Below are positions 19,447 to 27,122 of a DNA stretch of 64,000 nt, in pieces. The notes under the pieces are model-generated. The model did not search any database, was not told the origin of the DNA, and saw nothing but the letters and a program-made list of their open reading frames with translations. Both the position numbers and the translations under genes were made by a program. Where the stretch lies: assembly GCF_029581575.1 (NCBI RefSeq), contig NZ_CP089975.1, positions 1,860,001 to 1,924,000 of the forward strand, written 5' to 3'. Source of the DNA: Moraxella nasibovis. Lineage in GTDB: Bacteria; Pseudomonadota; Gammaproteobacteria; Pseudomonadales; Moraxellaceae. Every line of letters begins with the position of its first letter. Position 1 is the stretch's first letter.

Positions 19447-20052
19447 TTAAACCACCTTTCCCTTTAAAAGGTCGTGCCATTTTTTATAATCTGGCATGGC
19501 TTTTTTTACTTCCGCCCAAAACAACGGGCTGTGATTGGCATGGATCAGATGGCACAGCTCATGCACGAACACATACTCGGTACATTCATAAGGATATGCC
19601 GCCAGATAGACCGACAGCCATACCCGCCCTTGCCGTGTGTTGCAAGTCCCCCAGCGGGTCGTCATCTTGCGCAGGCGCACCTCATTGGCAGCCCTGCCAA
19701 CAATGGGTTGCCATTTTGCCGTCAGCTGCCCAATCCTTGCTTGTAGCTGCTGTCGGTATATCGCCAGCACAGCCGCCTCGTCATCGGGCAAATCCGCAGG
19801 CTCCCCCCACAAGGTCAAAAGCCGTCTTGATGGTGCGTTAAAGCGGCAGCGCAAGCGTTCATTTGCCTGCACCGCCCAATCAAGGCGCGCATAGACCGCC
19901 ATGATCGCAGCTTTTTCGCTTGCCCAAGCAGGCACGCTGACATGACATTCGTTCAATTTGATGCGAAAATTGATGTTTTTGACACGCTTTTTGGTGATGA
20001 CAAGCTCGATGCCCTGCACAGTAAAGGCTTGCTGTAATTCCGTTAATGTCAT
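19447..20052 (-). CDS. YgjP-like metallopeptidase-domain protein (DUF45)
   Basis: The 201-residue protein carries the zinc motif HELCHLIHANHSPLFW near residue 165, plus TTRWGTCNTRQGRVWLS, the pattern of the YgjP/DUF45 family (M48-like fold, often beside type I restriction genes or housekeeping genes). Its function is not established. It lies just beyond the dnd operon, in the same direction, after a 286 bp AT-rich gap that shows no gene and only a short AACAAC/GTTGTT palindrome near 20245-20257. Confidence 0.85.
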   Translation of the reverse strand: MTLTELQQAFTVQGIELVITKKRVKNINFRIKLNECHVSVPAWASEKAAIMAVYARLDWAVQANERLRCRFNAPSRRLLTLWGEPADLPDDEAAVLAIYRQQLQARIGQLTAKWQPIVGRAANEVRLRKMTTRWGTCNTRQGRVWLSVYLAAYPYECTEYVFVHELCHLIHANHSPLFWAEVKKAMPDYKKWHDLLKGKVV

Positions 20053-21940: not shown

Positions 21941-24019
21941 TTATTGAAAATACGCATTAGCAGTAATGTGCGATACAGCACCACTACTATCAAGCGAAGT
22001 GGCTTCCACCAAATAGGTTTTATTTACCGCTGACGCCAAATATTTAGCAACATCGGCATTGACTTCTGTATCTTGAGCCAACAAAATCACTTGTTGGTCG
22101 AGTGATGTCCAATGTTCAAAAATACCTTGACGATGTTCACTATCCAAACGAGCCAATGGTGTATCAATCACAAATGGCATCTGATAATCGGTTACTTCCG
22201 CCATCGCTGAAATCAGTGCAATCATCAACACTTGAATTTGCCCTGCAGATAAATCTACATTCGTCTCTAAACCATTTTTACCAAAAAGTTGCATTTTGCC
22301 TTGTTCATCAATTTTGATTTTATCAATGCGATGATCATGAGCGATTTTTTGATTAAGGCATGTTGCCACTTGAGCCACTTCATCCGTTTTGAGTTTCATT
22401 AAGGCTGTGGTCAATTCCTCAATCATGTCTTGCACTTGCTTACTGCGATTAGCTTTTTGTTGTCGTGGCGTATTGTCGCTATTTTGGTCAATCAAGCGTT
22501 GCAACTCTTGATGAACACGCTGATATTCTCGCTCAACATTCAATTTGTTATTTTCACACACACCGACTTTTTGACTACTTTCAGCATAGCTTTTTTGTTT
22601 TTGTTTCAGCTCTTCCACCAATTTATCTGTACCGTTGCCTTTCATGTCATTGAGCTGATTTCTAAGCTGTTCTTGCTCATGTTCACTTTTTTGCAAATCA
22701 TCCATCACTTGACTGATTGATTGCGTATTGATTTTGCCTAAGCTACGATATTCACTTTGGATATTGGCATGGGCAGTTTGTGATAAATAATTATGGGTAA
22801 TTTGATTGGCACAATTTTCAGGCAAAGGATGATAGAGCAATTCCCAACATTCACGAACAGCATCTTTCATTAAATGATGTTGTAAAATAGGCTCAGCCAT
22901 AATGCCAAGAGCTTCTTTTACTTTTTGATTTTTTGAAAATTGATACCAAAAATCATCGACTTTACCTTCAATTTGGTCTTTACCTGCTTCATGCTCAAGG
23001 CGATTTTTCTCTTGCTCTAACTTATGCAAAAGTTGTTCAATTTGTGGGCGCGGTAATAATACCAATGGTAAATTCTCAAATGCAGATTGAATACTAGATT
23101 GCAAATGTTGAGCAGTTTGTTCTGCTTGGTTGATTGCATTTACAAGTTCTTCACTGGTCTGAATCGAACCATTGGTCATTGAGCCTAATTGTGTGGTTAA
23201 GTCATCAATCTGTAAGCGTAATTGCTCTTTGGTTTGAAGTTCTTGTTTCAGTAGCTCTTCAGCCATCTGTAATTTAACATGGGCAGTTTTCATATCTTTT
23301 TCAACCCTGTCAATTTGCTCTTGGATTTTTACCGATGAACCTGCTTTAACATGTTGATTGCGGTAGAATTGTAAACTTTCGCTCAGCTGCTCCAATAAAG
23401 TTACACCCAATAATCCACGCAAGGCTTTGGCAAGCCAAACGCCCGCCCCAGTAGAGCGAGCAGAGCTGACAATTTTTTCGCCATCAAAAAAGAAAAAAGG
23501 TGCGTAGTCAATCGGCAAAGCGTGCGTTGCAAAATACCCACTCGCCTGCTCATCTTCTAGTGGCATTGCTGTCAATGCAATACCGCCCTCATCGGCCAAC
23601 CGAGAAATAATAGCTAGCTTATGATGCCGCACCAATTTACGCTGATCATCAAAAAACCATTGACGCTTGACACGAATCCCTTCCAATCTGCCTTGAATGT
23701 TTCGTTTGAGCAAATCAATTTCAATATCAATGCAATATTGCCGACCATAACGCATTTGAGCCTGATGATGTAAAGCATGCTGTAAATAATCAGGATAACT
23801 GCGTTTTTCACTCAAGCCTGCACGGTCCAAATGACTAATCGCATCTTCATCGTATAGTCCCAAATAAATGGCTTCTAACAATGTGGTTTTACCATGACCA
23901 TTTTTTGCACCAATAATCACCAAATTTTTGCTGTCTTTAGGCTCTGGAAACTCAAAATGTGCTTCGGCATAAGATTTGAAATTCTTCAGTTTAATCGAAC
24001 TAATCCACATTTTTTTCAC
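21941..24019 (-). CDS. dndD: DNA sulfur-modification ATPase DndD
   Basis: The 692-residue SMC/Rad50-like ATPase has Walker A GAKNGHGKT (37-45), a long coiled-coil middle (about 210-560), the ABC signature LSAGQIQVLMIAL (about 590) and Walker B FVIDTPLARLDSEHR (about 620). These are the standard DndD motifs. DndD is thought to power or nick DNA during insertion of phosphorothioate sulfur. The start could be GTG at 24019, directly after the preceding stop, or ATG at 24010 (MWISSIKLKNFKSY). It lies third in the four-gene operon. Confidence 0.93.
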   Translation of the reverse strand: MKKMWISSIKLKNFKSYAEAHFEFPEPKDSKNLVIIGAKNGHGKTTLLEAIYLGLYDEDAISHLDRAGLSEKRSYPDYLQHALHHQAQMRYGRQYCIDIEIDLLKRNIQGRLEGIRVKRQWFFDDQRKLVRHHKLAIISRLADEGGIALTAMPLEDEQASGYFATHALPIDYAPFFFFDGEKIVSSARSTGAGVWLAKALRGLLGVTLLEQLSESLQFYRNQHVKAGSSVKIQEQIDRVEKDMKTAHVKLQMAEELLKQELQTKEQLRLQIDDLTTQLGSMTNGSIQTSEELVNAINQAEQTAQHLQSSIQSAFENLPLVLLPRPQIEQLLHKLEQEKNRLEHEAGKDQIEGKVDDFWYQFSKNQKVKEALGIMAEPILQHHLMKDAVRECWELLYHPLPENCANQITHNYLSQTAHANIQSEYRSLGKINTQSISQVMDDLQKSEHEQEQLRNQLNDMKGNGTDKLVEELKQKQKSYAESSQKVGVCENNKLNVEREYQRVHQELQRLIDQNSDNTPRQQKANRSKQVQDMIEELTTALMKLKTDEVAQVATCLNQKIAHDHRIDKIKIDEQGKMQLFGKNGLETNVDLSAGQIQVLMIALISAMAEVTDYQMPFVIDTPLARLDSEHRQGIFEHWTSLDQQVILLAQDTEVNADVAKYLASAVNKTYLVEATSLDSSGAVSHITANAYFQ

Positions 24020-24241
24020 CTATTTCCAATATTGTTCGTGTTCAAAAATACGGTCAAACACACTGCTGCGGTCGCTACTACGATTAACCAATTGCTGTCT
24101 GCGTTGCCAATCAACCAATTCAGCCAAAGCATCCAAATCAATGCCTTTTTCTTGGGCAATTTTATCTAAAATTGTCTTTGTTTTTGGGTCATTCCACAGC
24201 AACAAATCCGCCACCGTCTCTTGTGGATTTACTTTACTCAT
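24020..24241 (-). CDS. Small dnd-associated protein between dndC and dndD
   Basis: The 73-residue product (MSKVNPQETVADLLLWNDPK... ending FEHEQYWK) is acidic, helical and without a signal or membrane segment. Its ATG overlaps the dndC TGA as ATGA, and its stop abuts the dndD start, so it is translationally coupled to both. I recall small proteins annotated as DNA modification system-associated in such positions, but the biochemical role is unknown. Coupling argues that it is a real subunit or assembly factor of the system. Confidence 0.8.
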   Translation of the reverse strand: MSKVNPQETVADLLLWNDPKTKTILDKIAQEKGIDLDALAELVDWQRRQQLVNRSSDRSSVFDRIFEHEQYWK

Positions 24242-25362
24242 GCCTTACTCCGTTCAAAATTTTCAATCACATCTTCCGCCCACGTCCGCTTAATAAACTC
24301 AATTTCCGCAGGACTAATCAACTCTTCGCCAAATTCATCTTGCACCTGCATCAAACGTTCAAAAATCATTTGCCGTGCTTCAATGGTAAATGGGCCGGGA
24401 ATGAGCTTGCCGTTTTTCATGGTTATTTGCCCATTTCTCCTCCGGTATTGACGATATTTTTCATCATTACGAATTTCCACCAACCAGTCACGAAAATCCA
24501 ATAAGGGCTGAAATTCCGTCTTACCTACATCAACAAAACCTTGCAAACTTTTGTCTTTGGTAACCACCGTACATGTCCAGCACCCAAAACGGCTGGAATT
24601 TGTACCACAACTTGGTGCATCGTCTTCTGACAAAATCAACGGACATTCCCCACCTTTGGCATCACGATACAACTGCACCAAATCTCGGTGCGAACCACCC
24701 CACGGCGGATTATTGAACACCAAAAACTCCCACACTTCATCAGTGCTAATATCCACAATTGGGCGATAAACATAGGCATTTTTGAGTGATGTATGTGGCG
24801 TTAAATTGCTGTTTTCTAAATTTTGGTGGCTTTCTATACTGGCTTTGCGTGTCGTAGATTCATCTTTGCGCACACCTAACAGTAAAATCACTTCGCCATG
24901 TTCAGACACTTTATTTAAAATGTATTGACTGGTCGGCTGAATTTTTAAACGGTCAGTACACCAACGCATCCCCCGATTCGGTGATGGATAACCCTTACCA
25001 ATCAACAAACTCCAAAATGTTTCACTGACTTTTGGCGTGGTAATTTCGCCATCAATCGGTAATTTTAGAATTTTGGCAGACTTTAAAATTTGAGCCAGCG
25101 TTTTTTTCATATGCGAAACAACGAGCGGACTTTCCACCAAAGTATCATTGGATACAAAATAAATTTGTCGTGTGCGTAAATTTGGTGGTAATTCCAGTAA
25201 AATATCAAACACCAAATGTGCAACCAATGTGCTATCCTTTCCCCCAGAAAAGGTAACAATCCATGGGAAATTTTGCGACTGATCCAAGTATTCATCAATC
25301 AATTCTTCACGAATGGCATTAAAATCAGTTTGAATATTTATCACATCAACAACAGAAGACAT
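24238..25362 (-). CDS. dndC: DNA phosphorothioation sulfurtransferase DndC
   Basis: The 374-residue protein is a PAPS-reductase-like ATP pyrophosphatase. The PP-loop SGGKDS is at 39-44, followed by DndC-specific segments (VSNDTLVESP, GYPSPNRGMRWCTDRLK, LLLGVRKDEST, PWGGSHRDLV). Cysteines likely to hold an iron-sulfur cluster appear in MRWCTDR, GECPL, SCGTN and GCWTCTVV. DndC transfers sulfur to the DNA backbone with sulfur supplied by a cysteine desulfurase; dndA is absent, so a chromosomal IscS may serve (known for other hosts, inferred here). It is the first gene of the operon and is driven by the poly-G promoter. Confidence 0.94.
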   Translation of the reverse strand: MSSVVDVINIQTDFNAIREELIDEYLDQSQNFPWIVTFSGGKDSTLVAHLVFDILLELPPNLRTRQIYFVSNDTLVESPLVVSHMKKTLAQILKSAKILKLPIDGEITTPKVSETFWSLLIGKGYPSPNRGMRWCTDRLKIQPTSQYILNKVSEHGEVILLLGVRKDESTTRKASIESHQNLENSNLTPHTSLKNAYVYRPIVDISTDEVWEFLVFNNPPWGGSHRDLVQLYRDAKGGECPLILSEDDAPSCGTNSSRFGCWTCTVVTKDKSLQGFVDVGKTEFQPLLDFRDWLVEIRNDEKYRQYRRRNGQITMKNGKLIPGPFTIEARQMIFERLMQVQDEFGEELISPAEIEFIKRTWAEDVIENFERSKA

Positions 25363-25387: not shown

Positions 25388-25418
25388 ATTGTAACCCCCC
25401 CCCCTGCGATTTCGTCAA
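25388..25418 (-). promoter_or_regulatory. Putative phase-variable promoter of the dnd operon (G10 spacer)
   Basis: On the minus strand a -35 TTGACG (25418-25413) and a -10 TACAAT (25393-25388) are separated by 19 bp, ten of which are an uninterrupted G run (25404-25395). The -10 lies 26 bp before the dndC ATG. The optimal sigma70 spacer is 17 bp, so a tract of G8 would make a strong promoter, and G10 a weak one. Length change by slipped-strand replication would switch the whole operon, as known for porA and opc of Neisseria. The switching itself is inferred. Confidence 0.8.
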
Positions 25419-25430
25419 GACCGCAGACAA

Positions 25431-25466
25431 TAAAAAACCCTTTGATGTATACATCAAAGGGTTTTT
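25431..25466 (-). terminator. groEL terminator (perfect palindrome)
   Basis: A 28 bp perfect palindrome (25436-25463; arms begin AACCCTTTGATGTA) is followed on the minus strand by six T residues. It separates groEL from the downstream dnd promoter, so dnd transcription should be largely independent of heat-shock transcription, apart from read-through. Confidence 0.85.

Positions 25467-25484: not shown

Positions 25485-27122
<1,638 letters not shown>

Follow-up and report, generated by a model that had tools for sequence, protein, structure and literature searches.

In the porA and opc promoters of Neisseria meningitidis, a homopolymer lies between the -35 and -10 hexamers, and promoter strength depends on their spacing. 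DNA modification can also be controlled by slippage, as described for modM of type III systems, for type I hsdS phasevarions and for pglX of Pgl/BREX; phase-variable restriction-modification (phasevarions) and pglX have possible effects on defence and on gene regulation. Phase variation of DNA methylation is well known. Discussions of phase-variable restriction-modification are available (PMC12707154, PMC11868660). In Moraxella catarrhalis, a poly-G tract is located 29 bp upstream of uspA1 and comprises 6-11 G's among five strains, with a 21-fold difference in mRNA between G10 and G12 (PMC7302503).

Here we describe a G10 tract in front of a Dnd operon of Moraxella nasibovis, within a stretch of 64,000 nucleotides that was analysed as a whole (the window). 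The dndC promoter resembles that of uspA1, a gene of the same genus in which tract length grades transcription, in having poly-G close 5′ of the start codon (32 bp here, 29 bp there). The uspA1 promoter, however, drives an adhesin gene, whereas the dndC promoter drives a DNA-modification and defence operon. The placement of the tract between -35 and -10 is shared with porA and opc, but these encode surface proteins and belong to another family of bacteria. Phase-variable restriction-modification systems act through methylation and usually carry the repeat in coding sequence; in contrast, the dnd operon concerns backbone sulfur modification and its tract lies in a promoter. The DndC-Sp-DndD-DndE/FtsK variants of Burkholderia glumae and Aureimonas plasmids have these four genes in identical order, and relatives with the four genes also occur in many proteobacteria, but no slippage tract precedes dndC at the B. 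glumae and Aureimonas loci. Phase variation is not mentioned in a description of DndE fused to clade-3 HerA/FtsK (PMC10853773), and phosphorothioate (PT) heterogeneity has been reported in other strains with no genetic switch behind it (PMC6459556). In the one open-access library searched, neither Dnd nor Zorya was found described as phase-variable. Judged by that library, this would be a familiar slippage switch in a defence system lacking such a description.

The dndC promoter and its G-tract

Read directly from the sequence, the minus strand from 25418 to 25388 is TTGACG-AAATCGCA-GGGGGGGGGG-T-TACAAT (Table 1). The G10 falls exactly between the two hexamers and the spacer is 19 bp, both as stated in the preliminary description; its distance of 26 bp upstream of dndC has to be corrected to 25 bp, from the -10 to the ATG at 25362. 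This is the sole G/C run of at least 8 in the window. The promoter was missed by a standard promoter scan because the scan accepts only spacers of 16-18 bp. A TAG is present in the dndC frame two codons 5′ of the ATG. The G10 is therefore untranslated and must act before translation, and a coding-frameshift mode is ruled out by the in-frame stop.

We consider it likely, with a probability of roughly 0.8, that this tract is a phase-variation device, conferring slippage-controlled, graded expression on the four-gene Dnd operon. The sample is one genome of this species, and the homopolymer length in the assembly may be off by one or two. We infer for this organism that replication slippage would add or drop G's, and that the number of G's would set the distance between -35 and -10, which is 19 bp now and would be 18 bp with G9 and 17 bp with G8. 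This spacing would in turn set the strength of the sole evident promoter of dndC-sp-dndD-ftsK, which is expected to be weak at 19 bp and should be strengthened by the loss of one or two G's. A clonal population would consequently hold cells with unequal levels of PT modification, and the likely benefit would be to hedge the gain from phage defence against what it costs. The sequence agrees with the earlier proposal of a phase-variable Dnd promoter at every point where that proposal could be tested on it: the tract is non-random, the -10 is good, a terminator lies upstream, the tract is outside the reading frame, and the other long G-tracts of the genome are all found at phase-variable-type genes.

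Should dndC transcription start elsewhere, or should spacer length barely matter, the tract would be a bystander and modification would be constant. We regard this as unlikely, although TACAAT and TTGACG are good rather than perfect hexamers, a 19-bp spacer is weak and the closest relative has no tract upstream of dndC. Against it stands the strong terminator of groEL, on account of which transcription of the dnd operon should begin at or 3′ of the G10 promoter, and no second promoter-like site was found by the promoter scan between this terminator and the dndC ATG. Furthermore, the position of the tract beside the -10 is common to six other promoters of the genus, and uspA1 provides a precedent for control by such a tract (PMC7302503).

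Table 1. Features of the dnd locus, with positions in the window, and of the Zorya operon located outside the window in the same genome.
Feature	Position	Strand	Evidence
-35 hexamer TTGACG	25413..25418	-	sequence; strict promoter pattern
AAATCGCA between -35 and G10	25412-25405	-	sequence
G10 homopolymer, predicted slippage site	25395..25404	-	sequence and run-length statistics
T between G10 and -10	25394	-	sequence
-10 hexamer TACAAT	25388..25393	-	sequence; strict promoter pattern
groEL, left flank of insertion	25485..27110	-	empty groEL-ygjP site in relative G008
groEL intrinsic terminator, 15-bp stem	25433..25466	-	-19.6 kcal/mol, z -5.3
dndC, 374 aa, PAPS-reductase-like sulfurtransferase	24238..25362	-	TIGR03183 5e-116; PADLOC DndC 4e-128
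Sp-DndD family small protein, 73 aa	24020..24241	-	PF20306 4e-9, above cut-off
dndD, ABC/SMC-like ATPase	21941..24019	-	TIGR03185 1e-66; PADLOC PbeC/DndD
FtsK/HerA translocase, 530 aa	20339..21931	-	FtsK_SpoIIIE 3e-19; family alignment
ygjP-like metallopeptidase gene, right flank	19447..20052	-	PF01863 2e-41; empty site G008
Type II Zorya operon zorA-zorB-HNH zorE	G000:C1:1654077-1656999 (L054:6078-8999)		ZorA2 4e-117, ZorB2 2e-91, ZorE2 1e-85

Gene content and setting of the dnd operon

The four genes form a compact variant of Dnd, dndC-Sp-dndD-(DndE-)FtsK, and neither dndB nor dndFGH lies beside them. Its initial description as a phosphorothioation operon holds as far as DndC is concerned, which scores 388 bits against TIGR03183 (cut-off 290), but the operon is this four-gene variant and not classical dndBCDE. 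DndD aligns with TIGR03185 over nearly its full length at 225.6 bits, the cut-off being 245.9; both the PbeC and the DndD models of PADLOC score on it, and its position in the operon fits DndD. The dndD start is a GTG at 24019, and relatives begin at MWIS, equivalent to the ATG at 24010. The translocase gives no match to PF08870 (DndE), its putative domain probably being too divergent to score. In a homologue (L278), an N-terminal DndE domain is detected in the same place (PF08870, 4e-6, above cut-off), which fits the DndE-HerA/FtsK fusions of PMC10853773. The TIGR03238 (DndH) profile found no match, but its controls gave none either. The role of the cysteine desulfurase (DndA/IscS) is expected to be filled by a genomic IscS.

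The GC content of the operon is 37-41%, compared with 46% in the genome sample; dndC was found in none of the 21 congeneric genomes; and groEL and ygjP are adjacent in G008, which represents the empty site. Taken together, these observations identify the dnd operon as an acquired cassette, which would have been gained horizontally between groEL and ygjP and then put under tract control. A tract ancestral to the region downstream of groEL was rejected, as relatives are without it and the site in G008 is empty.

Other repeats occur next to groEL in the genus. The sequence directly 3′ of groEL in G016 contains an independent promoter with a G14 tract (TTGACA..TAAAAT; L076, G016:C42:43098-43126), which precedes a gene for a solute-binding lipoprotein, and in G003 groEL is followed by a long array of the short A/T-rich repeat GAAAATTA, a possible contingency repeat (L051).

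Long G/C tracts in the genome and the genus

In shuffles of the window, 6 out of 100 reached three 8-G matches, and the single-window test alone is not decisive. In 464 kb of this genome, 193 G/C runs of length 5 and 14 of length 6 are present, none of 7-9 and a single one of 10, which is the dndC promoter tract. The whole genome of 2.23 Mb contains seven runs of 9-12 and zero of exactly 8. Extrapolation of the observed tail predicts 0.03 runs of at least 9, against the seven observed; an order-1 Markov model predicts 3.6, yet also about 13 of exactly 8, where none is observed. The dndC promoter tract is not a chance run; the genome-wide evidence for this is strong and that from the window only is modest.

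All seven long tracts are located in or before genes of phase-variable type. Adhesin or autotransporter genes account for four of them (two upstream, two inside), and the other three lie before dndC, before zorA and within a mod gene of type III with res after it. The latter tract, a C9 at G000:C1:1832130 (L055:4131-4139), breaks the mod frame, corresponding to an off state in this assembly. Across 22 genomes of the genus, the strict TTGAC-tract-TANNAT pattern has 7 matches, and the reversed control has 0.

The bases preceding the tracts were also recorded. Among 94 distinct G-tracts of at least 9 in the genus, nine directly follow CGCA and nine directly follow TGC, each of which precedes about 1% of short G-runs, an enrichment that is strong but post hoc and uncorrected for related promoters. 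CGCA precedes the dnd tract and TGC the Zorya tract. A more general GCA signal before tracts was discarded, as comparison with a matched background gave p 0.06, short of significance.

The zorA promoter of this genome reads TTGACA-AAATATGC-G10-TAAAAT (G000:C1:1654077-1654106, with the G10 at 1654091-1654100) and precedes zorA-zorB-zorE, in which ZorA2, ZorB2 and an HNH ZorE2 are consecutive, as is characteristic of type II Zorya. Its hexamers are separated by N8 plus G10, giving a spacer of 18; the tract-in-spacer design is that of the dndC promoter, although the proteins are unrelated. The orthologous promoter in G009, where ZorA shares about 80% identity along most of the protein, reads TTGACA-AAATAAGC-GGGGTGGG-TAAAAT, with a spacer of 16 versus 18. 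Both hexamers are thus kept and the tract is shorter and interrupted, which backs the promoter assignment and marks the tract as the changing part. In G018, whose Zorya II is more distantly related, a C16 lies about 45 bp before zorA.

The interrupting T in the G009 orthologue indicates that a tract can become locked. The dndC tract could similarly have arisen by slippage and now be selected at one length with constant low expression, a reading compatible with a sample of one genome of the species. The dndC tract is, however, a pure G10 that lies within the strain-variable range of 6-11 found for uspA1 in M. catarrhalis, and we consider such a fixed state very unlikely.

If the dndC tract is instead a phase-variation device, the genus would apply the same tract control to adhesins, restriction-modification, Zorya and Dnd alike. 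Further defence genes bear tracts within their coding sequences: DarT1 with a NADAR antitoxin in G009 (C10, L351:5101-5110), hsdS in G018 (G13, L359:2778-2790) and a type IIG enzyme in G016 (G11, L196). Together with a switched Dnd, Zorya and the type III system, these type I, type IIG and DarT1 genes would suggest that whole defence repertoires, beyond restriction-modification, can be bet-hedged.

Two further observations concern candidate loci of this kind. The interval from smc to tauE/birA holds tract-controlled cassettes that differ by species (L054, L087, L359), namely Zorya II, a gene for a DUF4407 membrane protein behind a G11 promoter, and hsdS; it is a possible hotspot for switchable defence. 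L188 (G011) and L365 (G017) each contain an ORF pair, of about 105 aa and then 430-500 aa, split at G9-G11, and the long frame of L365 has no family match. These split frames are a candidate phase-variable gene.

Dnd loci in other bacteria and the reach of a possible switch

The closest relative resides on an M. osloensis plasmid, with a DndC that is 78% identical and an operon broken by an insertion. No tract is present upstream of its dndC, and the cassette therefore does not carry the tract as a conserved element. An upstream tract was likewise missing from all further dndC loci scanned within the family to which the window belongs, including Acinetobacter-like ones, and the scan of about 120 dndC loci yielded no comparable promoter tract.

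In Stenoxybacter acetivorans, which has the same four-gene Dnd operon, a C13 lies shortly after the dndC ATG (L217:6982-6994); the frame from this ATG meets a stop, and the C13 is out of frame. A Neisseriaceae genome, G726, also has an out-of-frame C13 at the 5′ coding end of dndC (L333:1485-1497, gene strand). The G726 sequence resembles a draft, and its dndD looks broken, which makes Stenoxybacter the stronger parallel case. The DndC tree places the two C13 genomes as sisters and joins the window to the M. osloensis plasmid, a placement that requires a tract to have been gained at least twice in this Dnd subtype. The at least two gains on the tree would represent two mechanisms, acting through the promoter in Moraxella and through coding sequence in Neisseriaceae. 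As the Neisseriaceae parallels use the coding frame, they point to switching by frame or length; a role of the dndC G-run as a G-rich structure or protein-binding site irrespective of its length, conceivable since unusual structures are possible in G-runs, is most improbable for a single loopless run that fills a promoter spacer.

On balance, we favour a picture broader than the dndC promoter as a phase-variation device, namely a phase-variable immune repertoire in which Dnd, Zorya II and type III restriction-modification would be switched independently by their own G-tracts, a clone would split into combinations of defences, and Dnd would have come under slippage control at least two times. 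If sulfur modification switches in the way that methylation does, this would constitute a heritable and reversible source of otherwise unexplained PT heterogeneity (PMC6459556), and PT-on and PT-off cells could be compared naturally within one clone. The question of why a defence is not always on would thereby become directly testable in one genus.

Several other runs and matches were set aside. The G8-9 runs about 640 bases into dndC of GC-rich Burkholderiales are ordinary coding sequence, placed by our reading of the sequence at conserved PWGG codons, and the tracts in L097 and L093 were rejected as control elements of dndC since they are positioned downstream of it. Single-sequence dndC scans of genome-contig and viral-contig collections returned no match, and a match of a promoter 20-mer in a viral contig proved to be unrelated phage coding sequence.

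None of the remaining 15 dndC loci identified in Neisseriaceae bears such a tract at this gene. Most Neisseriaceae dndC genes are accompanied by a divergent XRE-type regulator, which is missing at the tract-bearing loci. Repeats of the TTTTAGGT type are common in the promoter region that these dndC genes share with the regulator (L213-L215, L319-L331), and regulator and repeats together represent another way of controlling this operon.
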